Below, piece by piece: positions 25,925-33,760 of a stretch of 45,678 nt of DNA; the stretch's first letter is position 1; each line of letters starts with the position of its first letter. Made by a program: the position numbers and the translations under genes. The notes beneath the pieces were generated by a model. That model was not told the DNA's origin, did not search any database, and saw only the letters and a list, made by a program, of their open reading frames with translations. The stretch is from Belnapia moabensis DSM 16746. Lineage in GTDB: Bacteria > Pseudomonadota > Alphaproteobacteria > Acetobacterales > Acetobacteraceae. The stretch covers positions 1 to 45,678 of the forward strand of contig NZ_JQKB01000045.1 of NCBI RefSeq assembly GCF_000745835.1, read 5' to 3'.

Positions 25925-26899
25925 CTACTCGATCGCCCGGAACCCCGTTGCCCGCACCACCTCCGCCCAGCGCGCGGTCTCCGTCCGCATCAGCGTGGCG
26001 AAGTCGCTCCGCCCGGCCGGCGAGAGGCGGAACCCGGCCTCCTGCAGGCGGATGCGGAGCGCCGGCGCCGCCATGGCCCGCAGCACCGCCGCCTCGATCT
26101 CGGCGGCGAGCGGGCCTGGTGTCGCCGCCGGCGCCACCAGACCGAACCAGGCGCTGATCGAAAGCGCTGGCCGCCCTAGCTCCGCCATCGTCGGAATGCC
26201 GGGCAGCAAGGGGGAACGCTCCGGCCCGGTCACCGCCAGCGCCTTCATCCGCCCCGCCTGCACGTGCGGCGCGACTGCGGCGATGCTGCCGAACATGCCC
26301 TGCACATTGCCGTTGAGCAGCGCGGCCACCGCATCCGCCGTCGCACGGAAATGCACCGCCTCGACCGTCACCCCCGCCGCCTGGCCGAGCATGGCGGCGG
26401 CGAAATGCCCCGGGCTGCCAGCGCCGAAGGTGCCCATGTAGAGCGCGGACTGGCCCTTGCCCCAGGCGAGGTAGCCGTCGAGATCGGTCGCCGGCAGCCC
26501 CGGCGGCACGACCAGGGCGAAATCCACCGAGGCCAGCTCGGCGACGGCGGTGAAGTCGCGCGCCGGATCATAAGGAAGTCGGGCGTAGGTGCTGGGCGCC
26601 ATGGCGAGCTGCGCCACCTCCCCGAGCAGCAGCGTCGAGCCGTCGGGCGGCGCCGTCTTCGCCACCTCCTGCGCCGCGATCAGCCCGCCCGCGCCCGGCT
26701 TGTTGTCGACGACGATGCCGGCCGGCCAGGCCTCCCTCATTCCTTCCGCCAGCAGCCGCCCGAGCAGGTCGGGCCCCGTCCCGGCCGGGAAGCCGAGCAG
26801 GATGCGCAGCGGCCGGTCGGGCAGTGCACCCAGGGCAGGAAAGGGGAAGGCGGCCGCGCCGGCCAGCACGGAACGCCGCCGCAATGCGCGCGAGATCAT
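25925..26899 (-). CDS. Bug-family substrate-binding protein of the tetronate operon
   Basis: A 324-residue periplasmic receptor. The leader has RRRSVLAG, a hydrophobic run and an Ala-rich end near 24 (Tat-like). Landmarks are LGFPAGTGPD, VVDNKPGAGG, PPDGSTLLLG and VQGMFGSI. It follows otnC by 79 nt on the same strand, so it probably binds a four-carbon sugar acid such as threonate or erythronate, or a precursor. ATG 26899 was chosen as the Met directly before the signal sequence. No TctA/B genes adjoin. Confidence 0.88.
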   Translation of the reverse strand: MISRALRRRSVLAGAAAFPFPALGALPDRPLRILLGFPAGTGPDLLGRLLAEGMREAWPAGIVVDNKPGAGGLIAAQEVAKTAPPDGSTLLLGEVAQLAMAPSTYARLPYDPARDFTAVAELASVDFALVVPPGLPATDLDGYLAWGKGQSALYMGTFGAGSPGHFAAAMLGQAAGVTVEAVHFRATADAVAALLNGNVQGMFGSIAAVAPHVQAGRMKALAVTGPERSPLLPGIPTMAELGRPALSISAWFGLVAPAATPGPLAAEIEAAVLRAMAAPALRIRLQEAGFRLSPAGRSDFATLMRTETARWAEVVRATGFRAIE

Positions 26900-26978
26900 G
26901 GACGGAAGCTCCCCTGGCGCCAGGCGCCTTGTTTCGTTGCCGGGAGAGCCAAGCAAAGCCGACCCTGAGGGTCAACCG

Positions 26979-27611
26979 CTACCCGAAGGTGCCGAGCAGG
27001 TCCTCCACCTGCGCTGCAGTCAGCTCGCGCGCATCCTGGCCGCGCAGCAGCAGGGCGAGCTTGGCGGCTTCCTCCAGCTCCTCCGCCGCAAAGACCGCAT
27101 CGTCGAGCGTCTTGCCGCTGACGACCGGCCCGTGATTGGCGAGCAGCACCGCCCGCGCATCCCGGGCCGCTGCGGCGATGGCCGGCTCCATCGCCGCGTC
27201 GCCCGGCCGGTAATAGGGCACGACCGGCAGCACGCGCCCGATGCGCATAACGAAATAGGGCGTCAGCGGCGGAATCGGCGCCGGCTCGCCGGGCCTGGCG
27301 AGGCAGGCGATCGCCGTCGCATGGGTCGAGTGCAGGTGCACCACCGCCCCAGCCTCCGGCCGCGCATCGAGGAAGGCGCGGTGCATGAAGACCTCCTTCG
27401 AGGGCTTGTCGCCGGAGACGTGCCGGTACTCCCGGTCGAGCTTGCTGATCCGCGCCGGATCGAGCCGCCCCAGGCAGGAATTGGTCGGCGTCATGAGGAA
27501 GCCGTCCGGCAGCCGGACGCTGATGTTCCCCGCCGACCCGACCGAGAAGCCGCGTCCGAAGAGCAGCCGGCCATGTGCCGCGATCGCCTCGCGGATCTCA
27601 TCCTCGCTCAT
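26979..27611 (-). CDS. otnC: 3-oxo-tetronate 4-phosphate decarboxylase
   Basis: A 210-residue class II aldolase-fold decarboxylase. It shows FSVGSAGNISVRL and LMTPTNSCLGRLDP, the OtnC-type signatures, the zinc His pair in HLHSTHATA and the later His in ANHGPVV. OtnC converts 3-oxo-tetronate 4-phosphate to dihydroxyacetone phosphate and CO2. Its ATG overlaps the otnK stop (ATGA), giving adjacent kinase and decarboxylase steps, the known pairing in acid-sugar catabolism. Confidence 0.9.
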   Translation of the reverse strand: MSEDEIREAIAAHGRLLFGRGFSVGSAGNISVRLPDGFLMTPTNSCLGRLDPARISKLDREYRHVSGDKPSKEVFMHRAFLDARPEAGAVVHLHSTHATAIACLARPGEPAPIPPLTPYFVMRIGRVLPVVPYYRPGDAAMEPAIAAAARDARAVLLANHGPVVSGKTLDDAVFAAEELEEAAKLALLLRGQDARELTAAQVEDLLGTFG

Positions 27612-28861
27612 TGCCCGAACGCCTTCAGGAAGAAGTCCCGCGCTCCGAAATTCCCACTCTTGAGCGCGAGATGCAGGCCGGGGGTTTCGGCGAAGGTCCA
27701 GGGCACGCCAGGGTCGATCTCCGCCCCGATGCGAAGGCTCCTGACCCCGAGCCGCGACACCACCGCCCCAGAGGTCTCGCCGCCGGCCACCACCAGCCGC
27801 CCGATGCCCTGCGCGACCAGCGCCTCGGCGATGCCCGCCAGCACCTCCTCGACCAGCGCGCCCGCCTTGTCGCGGCCCAGCCGCGCCTGCAGGGCCTGCA
27901 CCTTCTCGGGCGGCGCCGAGGCCGCGATCACCACCGGCGCCTCGCCGAGCTTGCCCTTCGCCCAGTCCAGCGCCTGCCGCTGCAAGGCCGCGACATCCGG
28001 GTTGGCGAGCACGTCGAGTTCGAGGGTATGGGCATGGTCGCGCGCATAGCCGATCTGCCCGAGCGTCGCCCGCGAGCAGGAGCCTGCCAGCACCGCCGCA
28101 TGCCCGCGCATCGGCGGCAGCTCCGCCGCCGCGGCGCCGCGCTCCGGCAGCCGCCCCTCGCAGCGGAAATTGGCCGGCAGGCCCATCGCCACGCCGGAGC
28201 CGCCGGTGATCAGCGCATGCCCTGCCGCCGCCTCGCCGATCGCCAGCAGATGCGCATCCGTCACCGCATCGACGATGGCATAGCGCCGGCCGCTCTCCTT
28301 GAGGCCCGTCATCGCGCGGCGGATCGCCGCCGCACCCTGCTCGACGGTGGCGAAGGGCACTAGCCCCACCGTCCCATCCGTCTGGCGCGACAGCACGCGG
28401 ACCAGGTTGGCGTCGCGCATCGGGGTCAGCGGATGGTTCTCCATCCCGCTCTCGTTCAGCAGCTTGTCCCCGACGAAGAGGTGCCCCTGGAAGACCGTCC
28501 GCCCATTGGTCGGGAAAGCCGGGTTGGCCAGGGCGAAGCCGCAGTCCAGCCGCCGCACGAGCGCATCGGCCACGGGGCCGATATTGCCCTCGTCGGTGCT
28601 GTCGAAGGTCGAGCAGTATTTGAAGAAGACCTGCCGCGCCCCCGCCTTCAGCAGCGCCTCGCAGGCGGCGAGGCTCTCGCTGACCGCCTCGGCCACGGGC
28701 GCCGTCCGTGACTTCAGCGCGACGATGACGGCATCCGCCTCCGGCAGCGGGCCGTCGGGGACGCCGATCACCTGCACTGCCGTCATGCCGCCCTTCACCA
28801 GCGTATTGGCGAGATCGGTGGCGCCGGTGAAATCATCGGCGATGCAGCCGAGCAGCGGCAT
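27608..28861 (-). CDS. otnK: 3-oxo-tetronate kinase
   Basis: A 417-residue DUF1537-type four-carbon acid sugar kinase. The N-terminal domain starts LGCIADDFTGATDLANTLV, with KYCSTFDSTDEGNIGP and HPLTPMRDANLVRVL further on. The C-terminal nucleotide domain has LVVAGGETSGAVV. OtnK phosphorylates 3-oxo-tetronate at C4 for OtnC. ATG 28861 has GGAGGG a few bases upstream; a longer start at 28891 is unsupported. The oxidising enzymes (LtnD or DenD) and the isomerase OtnI are not in the window. Confidence 0.92.
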   Translation of the reverse strand: MPLLGCIADDFTGATDLANTLVKGGMTAVQVIGVPDGPLPEADAVIVALKSRTAPVAEAVSESLAACEALLKAGARQVFFKYCSTFDSTDEGNIGPVADALVRRLDCGFALANPAFPTNGRTVFQGHLFVGDKLLNESGMENHPLTPMRDANLVRVLSRQTDGTVGLVPFATVEQGAAAIRRAMTGLKESGRRYAIVDAVTDAHLLAIGEAAAGHALITGGSGVAMGLPANFRCEGRLPERGAAAAELPPMRGHAAVLAGSCSRATLGQIGYARDHAHTLELDVLANPDVAALQRQALDWAKGKLGEAPVVIAASAPPEKVQALQARLGRDKAGALVEEVLAGIAEALVAQGIGRLVVAGGETSGAVVSRLGVRSLRIGAEIDPGVPWTFAETPGLHLALKSGNFGARDFFLKAFGQ

Positions 28862-28927
28862 GGTGAAGCCCTCCCTGTGGTCGGGCCACACTCCGCGAAG
28901 CGCTGCGGCCTTTCAACCCCGCCCTGG

Positions 28928-29830
28928 TCATCCCCTCCCGGGCGGCAGCGCCAGCACGTCCCGATGCCCGATCCGCACCGCGAGCTTCCGCCCCGCCACC
29001 TGATCGAGCCGCGCCTCCATCCAGGCCTCGATCCGCCGGTCGCCCCGCCGGTCCTGCTGCCGGGCCGCCTCCGCATGGCCCATCACCAGTTCGGCGAGGA
29101 ACCGCCCTGCCGCCTCGCCCATGCCCGGCATCGGTGCGACGCCGCGCCCGCGCACCACCCAGTCGCTCGGCGCGCTGCTGACCTCGAAGCCCCTGGCCCC
29201 GAAGGCCTCGGCGATCACCCCAGGCGCCCTTGCGCCGAGTGCTGCGCCGCCGAATCCCTTGTCCCGCCCCTGGTCGCGGCGGAACCCTGCCGCCACCACA
29301 TGGTCCGCCGGATGCGGCGGCAGGAAGCGCTCCCGCCCATCGACGCAAAGCGCGGCATAGAAGGGCACCCGCAGCGTTGCCGCCATGCGCTCCACCCAGC
29401 CGCGCGAGACGAGGTCGGCCAGGGCCGAGCAGACCACGGCATCAGCATTGGTGAGCGGCAGCCCCCGCGGCGCCTCGGCCAGGTCGGCGACGACCGTCTC
29501 CACCCGCCAAGCCCCGCCCGGCGCATGCACCAGCAGCGTCCGCTTGTTGGGGAAGGAGACGGTGTAGCCGATGGCCTCCGCCCGGTCGGCGATGGTGTCG
29601 TAGGCCGCCTCCAGCAGCTCCCGGTCGGCATCGACCAGCGTCCAGGCCTGCGCCCGCCCGAGCCGGGGAGCGATGAAGCGCAGCAAGCTTCCCGTCCCGG
29701 CGCCGAGGTCGAGGAAGCGTGGCCGCGCCGGCAGGCGGGCTAGCAGGAGGTCCACCAGGGCCTCGCTCCGCGCCATGGCGTCGAAGGGCTCGCGCAGGTC
29801 GAGCCAGTCGAGATCGAATTCCTCGCTCAT
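28928..29830 (-). CDS. SAM-dependent class I methyltransferase
   Basis: A 300-residue methyltransferase with motif I RFLDLGAGTGSLLRF (about 34-48), an acidic motif-II residue in TLVDADRELLEAA and a post-motif NADAVVCSALADLVS. It probably transfers a methyl from SAM to a small molecule. Its ATG overlaps the glycosyltransferase stop (ATGA). It is the last gene of the five-gene pterin-like operon, where it could O- or N-methylate the glycosylated product (inference). ATG 29830 was selected because of that overlap; the upstream open frame is antisense-like padding. Confidence 0.85.
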   Translation of the reverse strand: MSEEFDLDWLDLREPFDAMARSEALVDLLLARLPARPRFLDLGAGTGSLLRFIAPRLGRAQAWTLVDADRELLEAAYDTIADRAEAIGYTVSFPNKRTLLVHAPGGAWRVETVVADLAEAPRGLPLTNADAVVCSALADLVSRGWVERMAATLRVPFYAALCVDGRERFLPPHPADHVVAAGFRRDQGRDKGFGGAALGARAPGVIAEAFGARGFEVSSAPSDWVVRGRGVAPMPGMGEAAGRFLAELVMGHAEAARQQDRRGDRRIEAWMEARLDQVAGRKLAVRIGHRDVLALPPGRG

Positions 29831-30858
29831 ACCCGCCCCATCTCGGCGATGAACGCCGCTGCCCGGTCGTCCCAGCGCGGCAGGCGCTGCCCGGCCGCCC
29901 AGGCCGCCTCCGCCATCGCCGCCCGCAGCTCGGTATCGAACAGCACCCGCCGCAGCGCCTTGGTCAGCGAGACGACATCGCCGGGCGGCGAGACGCTTCC
30001 TGCCTCCAGCGGCACCAGCTCGCCGAGCGCCCCGCCCGCCGTCACCGAGACTGGCAGGCCCCGCGCCAACGCTTCCGCCGCTGCCATCCCATAGCCTTCC
30101 CAATGCGAGGCAAGGGCGAAGACATCCGCACCGTCATAGAGCCCCTCCAGCGCCGGCCCCGTCACCTCGCCGGCGAATTCCACTCGTCTGCCCAGGCCCA
30201 GCTCCTCGACCAATGCACCGAGGCCCGCGGCATGGACAGCATCCCGCGCCGCGCCGACGATGGTGAGCCGCCACTCTACATCCAGGATGCCGGCGAGTGC
30301 CCGCAGCAGCACGTCATACCCCTTCCGCGGGATGAGCGTCCCGACCGAGAGCACGGCCACTCCTGGTCCGCCCGAGCCGCGGGCGCGCGGCGCCGGATCC
30401 GTGCCTGGTTCGACGATGCCGACGCGTGTCGCCTCGACGCCGAAGTCACGGACCAGCCGCTGCGCCGTCAGACGCGAGGTCGCCACAAGCCGCGGCATCC
30501 GCGGGAACAGCGCCCCCTCGATCGCCCGTAGGGCATCCCGCTGCGCCTTCTCGCCCTCCAGCGCCGTTGGGTGATGGATCAACCCCACCGCCCCCCGCGC
30601 CACCAGCGCTTCGGCGAGCGGCGCGAAGGCCGGCAGCCCCAGCCCGTCGGCGATGATCCGCACCCCCTCGGGCACCGCATTGAGCGCAGCCCGCGCCGAC
30701 GCTTCGGCCGCTGCATCCGGCAGCGGATGCCGCCCCGAGAGCTCCACCACATCCACCGTCTCGCCGAGCGCCCGGAATCCCTCGACCAGCCGCCGGTCGT
30801 AGTTATAGCCGCCCGAGACCGTTTCGTAGGGCCCCGGCACCAGCAGGGCGATGCTCAC
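29827..30858 (-). CDS. GT4-type glycosyltransferase
   Basis: A 343-residue glycosyltransferase with two Rossmann-like halves. The acceptor half starts LLVPGPYETVSGGYNYDRRL. The donor half has VLSVGTLIPRKGYDVLLRAL and the GT4 signature HWEGYGMAAAEALARG, with the E-x7-E pair that binds a nucleotide sugar. The enzyme is retaining by family. The ATG overlaps the stop of the pterin-synthase-like gene (ATGA), so the acceptor may be the pterin-like product. GT4 enzymes acting on pterins are known from cyanobacteria (BGluT), which fits but does not prove this. Confidence 0.87.
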   Translation of the reverse strand: MSIALLVPGPYETVSGGYNYDRRLVEGFRALGETVDVVELSGRHPLPDAAAEASARAALNAVPEGVRIIADGLGLPAFAPLAEALVARGAVGLIHHPTALEGEKAQRDALRAIEGALFPRMPRLVATSRLTAQRLVRDFGVEATRVGIVEPGTDPAPRARGSGGPGVAVLSVGTLIPRKGYDVLLRALAGILDVEWRLTIVGAARDAVHAAGLGALVEELGLGRRVEFAGEVTGPALEGLYDGADVFALASHWEGYGMAAAEALARGLPVSVTAGGALGELVPLEAGSVSPPGDVVSLTKALRRVLFDTELRAAMAEAAWAAGQRLPRWDDRAAAFIAEMGRV

Positions 30859-31256
30859 GCGACGGGTCCTTCATAGGCCGCCCAGGCATTCGGGCTCTCG
30901 CGCAGCAATACCTTGAGCCCCGTGACGTTCGCCGCCTGTGGCCCGAGCTTCCCGGCCTTCAACGCCGCCACCAGCAGCCCATGGATGTGCTGGCAGAGGA
31001 ATTCCGTGGTGGTGTTCAGCCCGGCGAACTCTGGCTCCGCGTCAAGGTTGCGGTAGTCAAGCCCGCCGAGGGCCTTCCGCAATTCGACCTTCGCCAGCCC
31101 GATATCGACCAGAAGATGCAGCGCATCGAGCCGCTCGGCGCGGAACTCCGCCTCCACCGCGAAGGTCGCGCCGTGCAGCCTTTGCGCCGGGCCGAACTCC
31201 GCCCCGCGGAAGCTGTGCGCCACCATGATGTGGTCGCAGACGGTCAGGCTGAACAT
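30855..31256 (-). CDS. 6-pyruvoyl-tetrahydropterin synthase/QueD-fold protein lacking catalytic Cys and His
   Basis: A 133-residue T-fold protein that aligns along its length with QueD/PTPS. Retained are zinc-type His14 (VAHSF), His28 (RLHG), Asp67 in GLDYRNLD, the TTTE segment (82-85) and Glu120 (LLRESPN), where the pterin-anchoring Glu sits in QueD. Changed are the third zinc His, Ala30 (HGATF instead of HGHxF), the catalytic Cys, Ala24, and the catalytic His, Tyr68. Ordinary PTPS or QueD chemistry is therefore unlikely. It may bind a pterin-like compound or catalyse something else. It sits 6 nt after the dehydrogenase gene and overlaps the glycosyltransferase gene by 4 nt. Confidence 0.85.
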   Translation of the reverse strand: MFSLTVCDHIMVAHSFRGAEFGPAQRLHGATFAVEAEFRAERLDALHLLVDIGLAKVELRKALGGLDYRNLDAEPEFAGLNTTTEFLCQHIHGLLVAALKAGKLGPQAANVTGLKVLLRESPNAWAAYEGPVA

Positions 31257-31262
31257 GTCGCG

Positions 31263-32246
31263 TCACTCACCATATCGGATTGTCGGGCAGGGCCAGATAG
31301 CCTCCCCCTCCAGCAGCCCCGGCAGGGCCGCCGGCAGATCGTCGAAGCGCACCGGCGGCGCCAGCAGCGCGTCGAGCCGCGCATCCTCCAGCAAGGCGAG
31401 GGCCAGCGCCAGCCGCTCCGCATAAGTCCGGCGCCCGCGCATCGCCGGCGCCACCTGGCCCACCTGGCTCGAGATCAATTGCAGTCGCCGCGCATGGAAA
31501 GCCTCGCCGAGCGGCAGGGTCACCGGCTTGTCGCCATACCAGCTTGCCTCGACGATCCGCGCCTCGAAGCCGGCACGCTCCAGCCCCAGGCGCAGCCCGG
31601 CCGGGTCGGCGCTGGCATGAATGACGAGTTCCCATCCCACCGGCACGGCGGCGGGCGCTGCGAAGCCGAGGCCAAGTGCCGCCGCCAACCCCGCCCGCGC
31701 CGGATCGGTGTCGCAAAGCAGCACCTCCATCCCGGGGATGCGCCCGAGCAGCGCCGCCACCAGCAACCCGACGACGCCGGCGCCGATGACGAGCGCCCGC
31801 TCCCCCGGCAGCGGCCGGGCATCCCAAAGGATATTGAGCGCCGTCTCCATATTCGCCGCCAGCACCGCCCGCAGATCCGGCACGCCATCCGGCACCGGGA
31901 TGCACATCGCGGCCGGCGCGACGAAGCGATCCTGGTGAGGATGCAGGCAGAAGACCCGCTGGCCGATCAGCGCTGCAGGCCCAGCCTCCACCACGCCGAC
32001 GGCGGCGTAGCCGTATTTGACGGCGAAGGGGAATTCGCCCCCCATCAGCGGCGCCCGCATCGTCCCCCATTGGCTGGGCGGCACGCGCCCGCCGAGCACC
32101 AGGCGCTCCGTCCCGCGTGACAGGCCGCTCGCCAGCATCCTGACCAGCGCCTCGCCCAGCCCCGGCGACGGCACCGCCTCCTCTCGCAGTTCCGCCACTC
32201 CCGGCGCGACGTACCAAAGGGCCTTTGCCGTCCCTTGGGCCGTCAT
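31263..32246 (-). CDS. Medium-chain dehydrogenase, BchC-like, without the usual zinc Cys
   Basis: A 327-residue MDR-superfamily oxidoreductase. The N-terminal GroES-like domain carries SGLSRGTERLVLGG, the pattern seen in BchC-type and related zinc-binding alcohol dehydrogenase-like proteins, where the usual catalytic GxCGxD is absent. The nucleotide fold has LVIGAGVVGLLVAALLG. It probably oxidises or reduces a small alcohol or ketone with NAD(P). The start overlaps the reductase stop (ATGA). In this operon it is a candidate for side-chain redox chemistry on a pterin-like precursor (inference). Confidence 0.85.
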   Translation of the reverse strand: MTAQGTAKALWYVAPGVAELREEAVPSPGLGEALVRMLASGLSRGTERLVLGGRVPPSQWGTMRAPLMGGEFPFAVKYGYAAVGVVEAGPAALIGQRVFCLHPHQDRFVAPAAMCIPVPDGVPDLRAVLAANMETALNILWDARPLPGERALVIGAGVVGLLVAALLGRIPGMEVLLCDTDPARAGLAAALGLGFAAPAAVPVGWELVIHASADPAGLRLGLERAGFEARIVEASWYGDKPVTLPLGEAFHARRLQLISSQVGQVAPAMRGRRTYAERLALALALLEDARLDALLAPPVRFDDLPAALPGLLEGEAIWPCPTIRYGE

Positions 32247-33028
32247 CGGCACACGCCCGGCCGCACCCGATCGAGCGCGATGTCGAACAGCACATCCGGC
32301 GGCATCGCATGCACCGTCCAGGCGAAGCGCAGCCCATCGGCGATGCGGGCCGCCTCCGGCAGGGTGAAGGCGGGGATGCCCGAGCCCAACAGCACCGGCG
32401 CCACCGTCACATGCAGCCGGTCGATGCAGCCCGCCGCCAGAAACCGGCTGACTGTCACCCCGCCTCCCTCGACGAAGATCCGCCGCAAGCCTCGGGCTGC
32501 CAGCGCCCCGAGGATCGCGGGGATGTCCAACCCGCCCTGCGCCGGGTCGCGCGGCAACCGTACAACCTCGGCAATGCCCAGCCGGTCGCTGCCTACCGCA
32601 TCCTCGGCCGCGAGCAGCAGGGTCGGCGGCCCCTCGCGGAACAGCCGGTACTCGCCCGAGAGTCGCCGGTCGGTATCGAGCACGACCCGCACCGGGTGGG
32701 GTCCGGCGCATTCCCGCGTCGTCAGCCGGGGGTCGTCCTGTCGCACCGTTCCTGCACCGACAACCACGGCGTCGCACAGCGCCCGCAGCCGGTGGGTATG
32801 AAGGATGTCCCCCTCACCGCCGATCCATTGCGAGGAGCCGGAGGCCGTGGCGATCCGCCCATCCAGCGTCTGCGCCAGCCGCCCGACCACCATGCATCCA
32901 TCCGCCGCCCGGGGCGGCGCCAGCAGCGGCCCAAACAAAGCCCCGAGGGCGCCGGACGGTGGCGGAGCGCCACTTTCGCGCACCGCCAGCAGCTCTCCCC
33001 AATCCCGAATCCCGGTCAGTCCATCCAT
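32243..33028 (-). CDS. RibD C-terminal-domain reductase
   Basis: A 261-residue protein of the RibD-C/dihydrofolate reductase-like fold. The core reads GRLAQTLDGRIAT, SSQWIGGEGD, CDAVVVGAGTVRQDDPRLT and IFVEGGGVTVSRFLA, which are the NADPH- and substrate-binding motifs of RibD-type reductases. The deaminase domain of true RibD is missing, so it is a stand-alone reductase for a pyrimidine or pterin-like compound. It is first in a five-gene coupled operon. ATG 33028 was chosen; a GTG at 33064 is possible. No strong ribosome site is seen for either. Confidence 0.85.
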   Translation of the reverse strand: MDGLTGIRDWGELLAVRESGAPPPSGALGALFGPLLAPPRAADGCMVVGRLAQTLDGRIATASGSSQWIGGEGDILHTHRLRALCDAVVVGAGTVRQDDPRLTTRECAGPHPVRVVLDTDRRLSGEYRLFREGPPTLLLAAEDAVGSDRLGIAEVVRLPRDPAQGGLDIPAILGALAARGLRRIFVEGGGVTVSRFLAAGCIDRLHVTVAPVLLGSGIPAFTLPEAARIADGLRFAWTVHAMPPDVLFDIALDRVRPGVCR

Positions 33029-33102
33029 GGCCCCGCGACCATGCCGCAAGCGCGGTGCTCGCACCAGCGCAACGAAGGGTGCAAGGCGCAGGTGATGGCG
33101 GT

Positions 33103-33760
33103 CTATTGTAGCTTGACAACGAATCTGCGGAGAATGCGGCGGAAATAGGCGTATTCCTCGCGATCATGCGGTACAGCTCGGCACGCGACATGAAACGTAC
33201 CTGGCTCGCGTTGCTGCCGGCACCCGCCGCACCGCCGGCTCATCGAGCACGTTGCGGCAGGCCGCTTCCAGCCGGTCGAGCGCGAGACCCGGCGTTCCAC
33301 GCGATGCGTAGATGCCGTCCTGGCAGAATCCCAGGGCGTCGATCCCCTGCTCACGCGCCGTCGGCACATCGGGGAAAGCCGGATGGCGGTTCTCCGAGAA
33401 GGCCGTCAGCACGCGTATCTGTCCCGCCTGCGCCAGCTCGGCGACGGAGCTGAAGATCGCCGCCGAGAAGTCGAGCCGCCCGGCCAGCGTGTCGTTCGCA
33501 ACGCAGCGCCTCGTCACGATATGGGATGTGGTTCATCTCCATTCCCGTCGCCCGCTGCACCCGCCAGTTGCGGCAGAGAATTCGGCCTTGGGCGACCGAA
33601 GCTCAGCGACTGCCGTCGCGCCTCCGCCAGCAAGCCTGGCAAGTCGCGGATCGGGCTGTTCGTCCGCACGGCGACAATGATGACACTCTCGCTCGTGCCG
33701 CAGACACCCTCGAAGCTTTCCGGCCCGATCCCGCCACCCATCTGCCCGTCAAGCCACCGG
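33103..33760 (-). pseudogene. Decayed Bug-family receptor gene
   Basis: Pieces of a Bug receptor occur in order in different frames on the minus strand. A middle part is ESVIIVAVRTNSPIRDLPG (about 33690-33630). Then come MEMNHIPYRDEA (about 33545-33510) and VAELAQAGQIRVLTAFSENR with FPDVPTAREQGI (about 33450-33340). A C-terminal EEYAYFRRILRRFVVKL lies near 33110-33160. Normal genes carry these in one frame. The N-terminal third with its signal peptide is missing. At least two or three frameshifts are needed, so this is a relic, not a functional gene. Confidence 0.8.

Follow-up and report, generated by a model that had tools for sequence, protein, structure and literature searches.

Among the described systems closest to the locus considered here is the neighbourhood of PTPS-IV, a subfamily of the 6-pyruvoyl-tetrahydropterin synthase (PTPS) fold for which passages of a 2017 paper (AGeNNT, PMC5445326) give the signature FGPAQ and, as neighbours, the Pfam families PF00925 and RibD_C (PF01872). 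PF00925 is read there as GTP cyclohydrolase I/FolE2, whereas its Pfam name is GTP_cyclohydro2; those passages give no pathway and make no mention of dehydrogenase, GT4, methyltransferase or lipid-type genes. Here we describe a five-gene operon containing a PTPS-IV gene in Belnapia moabensis DSM 16746, within a 45,678-nucleotide stretch of contig NZ_JQKB01000045.1 that is called the window throughout. We give about an even chance to the reading that this operon represents, in Acetobacteraceae, a widespread biosynthetic cluster of the PTPS-IV type, which diverts an early riboflavin intermediate to a 2-amino-4-oxo pteridine-like core that is usually glycosylated and methylated.

The early steps of riboflavin synthesis, carried out by GTP cyclohydrolase II (GCHII), the BrbF/ArfB deformylase and the RibD/ArfC reductase, involve the same enzyme families and motifs as the cluster. 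Compared with the riboflavin pathway, the cluster core is without deaminase, lumazine synthase and riboflavin synthase, and adds PTPS-IV, a medium-chain dehydrogenase/reductase (MDR), a GT4 glycosyltransferase and a methyltransferase. The cyanobacterial pterin glycosides and the O-methylated monapterin proposed in Agrobacterium (passages of PMC13259868) are likewise glycosylated or methylated bacterial pterins; as described there, they start from GTP cyclohydrolase I. No described pathway for this cluster was found in the open-licence literature, which agrees with an earlier note, made on this DNA from its sequence, that knew of no described pathway with this composition. Already public, however, are PTPS-IV as a subfamily, some of its gene neighbours and the structure of a homologue (3d7j). 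The cluster itself would be a pteridine or riboflavin-branch biosynthesis.

The five genes and their products

The earlier note had recognised a compact run of five genes on one strand, and all five open reading frames (ORFs) indeed lie on the minus strand between 28928 and 33028:

32243..33028, minus strand, RibD_C-family reductase, 261 amino acids from the ATG at 33028, with a GTG at 33064 as alternative start
31263..32246, minus strand, zinc-less, BchC-like MDR dehydrogenase/reductase, 327 amino acids
30855..31256, minus strand, PTPS-IV (FGPAQ) protein with the PTPS fold, 133 amino acids
29827..30858, minus strand, GT4-family glycosyltransferase, 343 amino acids, GTG start
28928..29830, minus strand, class I S-adenosylmethionine-dependent methyltransferase, 300 amino acids

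The 4-nt overlaps read ATGA between the RibD and dehydrogenase genes, GTGA between the PTPS and GT4 genes and ATGA between the GT4 and methyltransferase genes, so that the three ATGA overlaps noted earlier become two and one GTGA, while the 6-nt gap between the dehydrogenase and PTPS genes is as had been stated. No tRNA was found in the window; the home genome measures 6.7 Mb.

Judged by its sequence, the PTPS-fold protein (Pfam PTPS, 74.6 bits) is a member of PTPS-IV. FGPAQ occupies residues 21-25, of which F21, G22, A24 and Q25 are invariant and P23 nearly so in an alignment of 34 rows from three large groups, for which nematode PTPS (2g64) served as residue reference. The published neighbourhood of PF00925 and RibD_C is also present, with RibD in the window and a GCHII with intact Cys motif close to the cluster in 19 of 51 distant loci (defined below). 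The best PDB match is SCO6650 of Streptomyces coelicolor (3d7j, 149.7 bits), a direct homologue over the length of the protein that was deposited as uncharacterised.

PTPS and QueD enzymes have a catalytic Cys before an HGH motif, three zinc-binding His including both of HGH, and the Asp-His of a catalytic triad. In all 34 rows of the window protein's alignment, Ala24 stands at the position of this Cys, Ala30 at that of the second His of HGH and Tyr68 at that of the later, triad His; Asp67 is found in 26/34. A true PTPS or QueD was ruled out by these replacements together with the NCBIfam QueD score of 34.1 bits, below the cut-off of 89.25, and the earlier label of a PTPS/QueD-fold protein gives way to that of a PTPS-IV member. 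Because the PTPS-type residues are replaced, PTPS-pathway products, from which the compound had been proposed to derive, are an unlikely source. Glu120, His9, His14 and His28 are invariant in all 34 rows, His14 and His28 being the two zinc-type His that are retained; with His9 also invariant there may be an alternative metal site, and by analogy with PTPS structures Glu120 would bind a pterin-like ring.

The RibD_C protein (Pfam RibD_C, 142.5 bits), in which Pfam detected no deaminase domain, has as its best PDB relatives two 2,5-diamino-6-ribosylamino-pyrimidinone phosphate reductases, 6p8c (97 bits) and 2azn (82 bits). With E. coli RibD (2g6v) it has in common SQWI, LRA and DDP-LT-R, which are substrate-side residues of RibD-type reductases, and among 73 aligned rows S-x-W-I is present in 72, the exception being a truncated sequence that lacks the region. 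These conserved motifs predict a RibD-type pyrimidinone phosphate reductase. With no deamination on reduction, the 2-amino-4-oxo pattern of pterins would be kept.

The dehydrogenase had no Pfam match at E 0.001, and its best NCBIfam model, the bacteriochlorophyllide dehydrogenase BchC (TIGR01202), scored only 48.4 bits against a cut-off of 291.25. It is therefore not a BchC, and a role in photosynthesis was rejected. The AlphaFold model (mean predicted local distance difference test score, pLDDT, 90.9) has the MDR fold according to Foldseek, with RspB (4ilk) as first match at a template modelling (TM) score of 0.78 and idonate 5-dehydrogenase (0.79) and sorbitol dehydrogenase (0.77) in the top 50. 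S43 and G70, both invariant in 30 rows, align with the Zn-ligand Cys and His of RspB, and with these ligands replaced the enzyme is not a zinc-dependent MDR alcohol dehydrogenase. Many zinc-less MDRs are reductases.

The glycosyltransferase (Pfam Glycos_transf_1, 96.6 bits) gave general GT4 matches only. The methyltransferase scored just above the cut-off of 27 for Pfam Methyltransf_25 (28.1 bits) and had no NCBIfam match at E 0.001; G43 and G45 of its LDLGAGTG stretch are invariant in 31 rows. The gene set fits a glycosylated, methylated pteridine-like product, in line with the pterin-like compound suggested in the earlier note.

Conservation of the gene cluster

To describe the cluster in related genomes, 80 named Acetobacteraceae-type loci were chosen by their dehydrogenase, as the best 80 of 534 relatives listed; with Belnapia and Craurococcus entries, the window dehydrogenase shares 80-88% identity. 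The taxon labels of the named loci are not all reliable, as records labelled Elioraea, metagenome-assembled genomes (MAGs) of Asaia, unplaced alphaproteobacterial MAGs and one 'Solirubrobacterales' are among them. RibD, dehydrogenase, PTPS, GT4 and methyltransferase genes follow each other in this order on the same strand in 59 of the 80, and two further loci have all five genes with the midpoints of the GT4 and PTPS ORFs swapped, the stop-to-stop ORFs being overlong. Among the remaining 19 loci, 8 are without a detected methyltransferase, 5 without RibD, 2 without a PTPS match at the threshold used, and 4 without two or three genes or without both RibD and methyltransferase. In all 5 loci without RibD the dehydrogenase starts less than 250 bases from the contig end. 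Despite ample flanking sequence, the methyltransferase is absent from L071, L073, L087 and L107, and both GT4 and methyltransferase from L096, L104 and L113. As L096 and L104 retain RibD, dehydrogenase and PTPS, and loci lacking one or both of the other genes keep this trio, the GT4 and methyltransferase would act as decorations on a core.

The PTPS gene was matched in 121 of 299 genomes of the home order at E<=1e-6, the weakest match being G120 with E 6e-8 only, and relatives were found in 36 of 289 genomes of a class sample. A phylum search matched 81 of 299 genomes. Of these, only the 19 with E below 1e-27 were taken as PTPS-IV, while 62 with E 1e-11 to 8e-7 seem to carry PTPS relatives of other kinds. 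The home genome is included in each of the three samples. The cluster is thus common and occurs across phyla, and annotation usually labels its genes as those of queuosine or riboflavin enzymes.

The 51 distant loci comprise 14 of 20 plasmid matches and 37 genome stretches chosen from the class and phylum searches. They come from other Alphaproteobacteria (Rhizobiaceae, Methylosinus, Rhodobacterales), Gammaproteobacteria (Thiodictyon) and Actinobacteria (Streptomyces, Microbacterium, Arthrobacter). PTPS is present in all 51, the dehydrogenase in 48, GT4 in 47, the methyltransferase in 42 and RibD in 38; one locus (L161) is cut by its contig. Among the distant five-gene loci, RibD lies downstream on the opposite strand in 23, and 7 have it upstream in the same orientation; its relocation and inversion in the former indicate that the linkage is more than inertia of gene order. 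The five genes that the earlier note expected to find together in related genomes therefore do stay together in most named loci and recur in distant ones, and chance clustering was ruled out by this recurrence. In a dehydrogenase tree, 16 Acetobacteraceae-type rows group together (100/99), as do 4 actinobacterial rows (100/98), with deeper forks poorly resolved.

Some distant copies depart from this pattern. Two Streptomyces plasmids (L147 and L151) carry a lone PTPS-IV gene amid regulators and metallo-beta-lactamase-fold or cupin genes, where it may have a separate role or be a relic. The Rhodobacterales plasmid copies L146 and L229 have a PfkB/ribokinase-type gene close by; no GT4 was detected in L229, and that of L146 is set apart from the core.

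GTP cyclohydrolase linkage and the proposed pathway

The earlier note had recommended a search for added GTP cyclohydrolase genes, and such genes do occur, as the GCHII mentioned above (19 of 51 distant loci) rather than as FolE-type GTP cyclohydrolase I, which was found near the cluster in only 1 of 51 (L162) at a threshold of 60 bits in a search confined to FolE. The GCHII count was lowered from 20 by leaving out L166 (45.2 bits, no Cys motif). The proteins at L002 (1480-3264, minus strand) and L166 (1001-2269, minus strand) are RibBA proteins whose GCHII half is without the usual Cys motif, so that riboflavin synthesis in both genomes must rely on a different GCHII.

Two linked GCHIIs, both from Streptomyces, have Met at the position of a Tyr in E. 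coli RibA (2bz0), as found by alignment in L143 and by eye in L232. SCO6655 of S. coelicolor, presumably located near SCO6650, is a GCHII that reportedly carries the same Tyr-to-Met change and stops at the formylated intermediate (work of Spoonamore and Bandarian from 2006 and 2008). PMC2853524 lists SCO6655 as a GTP cyclohydrolase II. A creatininase-family gene is present in 6 of 51 distant loci and adjoins RibA in both Streptomyces loci, where its product scored best with MftE (141 bits, cut-off 172) and weakly with the archaeal deformylase ArfB (37 bits). Passages of PMC9478397 describe BrbF, a creatininase relative, as the deformylase of this same riboflavin intermediate in Sinorhizobium; distant members of the BrbF family failed to complement there, so the creatininase of the cluster is a candidate only for this role.

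From the gene content, its conservation, the residues kept and lost and the GCHII linkage, all observed directly, we infer the substrates, the step order and the product as follows. GCHII, linked in other lineages and encoded elsewhere in the home genome, would supply 2,5-diamino-6-ribosylamino-4(3H)-pyrimidinone 5'-phosphate, either on its own or together with a deformylase of the creatininase family. Reduction by the RibD_C protein, with no deamination, would then convert the ribosyl into a ribityl chain, the MDR enzyme would carry out a redox step on the polyol chain, and PTPS-IV may bind the heterocycle and, working differently from PTPS/QueD, help to close the ring or rearrange the side chain. 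The GT4 would then add a sugar, and the methyltransferase a methyl group, to the product. In a concrete version, the ribityl C2' would be oxidised and condense with the 5-amino group, so that a pterin of the 7,8-dihydroneopterin type would form independently of GTP cyclohydrolase I. The linkage of the five families and the distribution of GCHII and FolE in the distant loci were counted in favour of a core made by GCHII, RibD_C, MDR and PTPS-IV, as were the PDB relatives of the RibD_C protein and its missing deaminase domain, the Tyr-to-Met GCHII beside a creatininase in the Streptomyces pair, the loss of PTPS-type residues with Glu120 retained, and the loci that lack GT4 and methyltransferase. 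If a pterin were indeed made from the GCHII product, this would be an alternative to the textbook synthesis of pterins by GTP cyclohydrolase I, and PTPS-IV, a large subfamily, would gain a function.

Several observations weigh against this scheme. No GCHII was found in the flanks examined of the 80 named loci, and 17 of the 19 linked GCHIIs keep the Tyr, with Met in the Streptomyces pair only. In the home genome, the three PF00925 matches are a 403-amino-acid RibA that has both the Cys motif and the Tyr, a RibBA without the Cys motif in its GCHII half, and a PRK07198-type homologue. In the order sample the 403-amino-acid type occurs in 114 of the 120 genomes with the operon and in 33 of the 179 without it (the weak match G120 being placed with the latter), a comparison confounded by kinship. 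It is thus not operon-specific and probably serves riboflavin too; with the other two copies being as described, the candidate of an operon-specific GCHII in the home genome was rejected. The missing zinc site weakens the proposed oxidation by the MDR enzyme, and the OtnK and OtnC genes that often follow the operon (see below) have no place in the scheme. Additionally, with two FolE genes the home genome has a FolE-made pterin at its disposal, and a review (PMC5041015) mentions unpublished work assigning PTPS-IV to F420 synthesis. The home genome also encodes three creatininases above the cut-off and one below.

The two FolE genes suit an alternative, developed from the earlier note, in which the substrate is a FolE-derived dihydropterin, the RibD_C protein acts as a pterin reductase like the dihydromethanopterin and folate reductases, PTPS-IV alters the side chain, and GT4 and methyltransferase complete an O-methylated pterin glycoside. 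The RibD_C protein matches Rv2671 (4xrb, 52.6 bits), a folate-type reductase, and the cyanobacterial and Agrobacterium pterins cited above provide precedents. The RibD_C match is, however, closer to the diaminopyrimidinone reductases than to Rv2671, the PTPS-type residues are lost, and FolE is nearly absent from the distant loci within the search described, so that we hold this route to be distinctly unlikely.

We consider it unlikely that the product is not a pterin and that the same intermediate instead gives rise to a ribitylamino-pyrimidine in modified form, to an 8-ribityl pteridine or to a flavin- or deazaflavin-like cofactor. In favour of this, the riboflavin branch is where the linked GCHII, RibD and creatininase enzymes all have their place, and the F420 assignment points the same way. 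The RibD_C protein, however, is without a deaminase domain, and flavins and deazaflavins need a deaminated ring; a PTPS fold with a conserved Glu also points to a 2-amino-4-oxo ring.

Further partner genes

The earlier note treated the five genes as the unit. This proved too narrow, since the Acetobacteraceae run usually continues with OtnK and OtnC genes, and additional partners occur in other lineages. In the window, two such genes lie downstream of the operon:

27608..28891, minus strand, OtnK, 3-oxo-tetronate kinase (NCBIfam OxoTetrKin, 610.9 bits, cut-off 350)
26979..27611, minus strand, OtnC, 3-oxo-tetronate 4-phosphate decarboxylase (NCBIfam OxoTetrPhDc, 292.7 bits, cut-off 250)

OtnK and OtnC are enzymes of four-carbon acid-sugar breakdown (tetronate catabolism). 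Among the 67 named loci whose flank measures 2.6 kb or more, OtnK is downstream in 55 and OtnC in 40, often without a gap; the OtnK match is weak (175-297 bits) in six named loci. Neither gene was found in any of the 51 distant loci.

The distant loci have other partners, namely CDP-alcohol phosphatidyltransferase (17 of 51), cytochrome b561 (15), MdoH (15), FkbM methyltransferase (12), an LPG-synthase-type membrane protein (11) and a sulfatase-annotated protein (10); these counts are descriptive, as these loci also supplied the seeds and some of them are related to each other. A search for recurring ORFs without a label yielded mostly frames antisense to GC-rich genes. In some lineages, a membrane-linked product is hinted at by the genes for the CDP-alcohol phosphatidyltransferase and a flippase. 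It could be, for instance, that the pteridine is a head group only and that many lineages make a membrane- or envelope-linked conjugate, to which the CDP-alcohol phosphatidyltransferase attaches a lipid or phospho-alcohol and which the LPG-synthase-type flippase moves. The lipid-type genes recur across Alphaproteobacteria, a gammaproteobacterium and Actinobacteria, but they are not part of the Acetobacteraceae form, where only MdoH (2 of the 80 named loci) and FkbM (1) were seen, and none of the three CDP-OH transferase loci of the home genome matched the cluster type at E 1e-4. We regard such a conjugate as improbable. A more specific proposal, to which we give a slim chance, combines the GTP-cyclohydrolase-I-independent route through GCHII, RibD, MDR and a zinc-site-poor PTPS-IV to a glycosylated and methylated pterin with a last stage, proposed for Actinobacteria and for many lineages of Rhizobiales type, in which the pterin would be joined to a phospho-alcohol or lipid and flipped, to give a membrane-linked, redox- or light-active pteridine.

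Upstream of the operon, an ORF at 33164-33517 (minus strand) covers positions 146-238 only of the 274 of the TctC profile, and this partial receptor frame looks like a remnant; longer TctC-like frames lie upstream of the operon in the Belnapia loci L034, L035 and L037. Downstream of OtnC, a 343-amino-acid ORF at 25925-26956 (minus strand), with relatives also after OtnC in L034-L037, is probably a TctC-type receptor, as judged by eye and by cross-matching with the loci of the TctC fragment.

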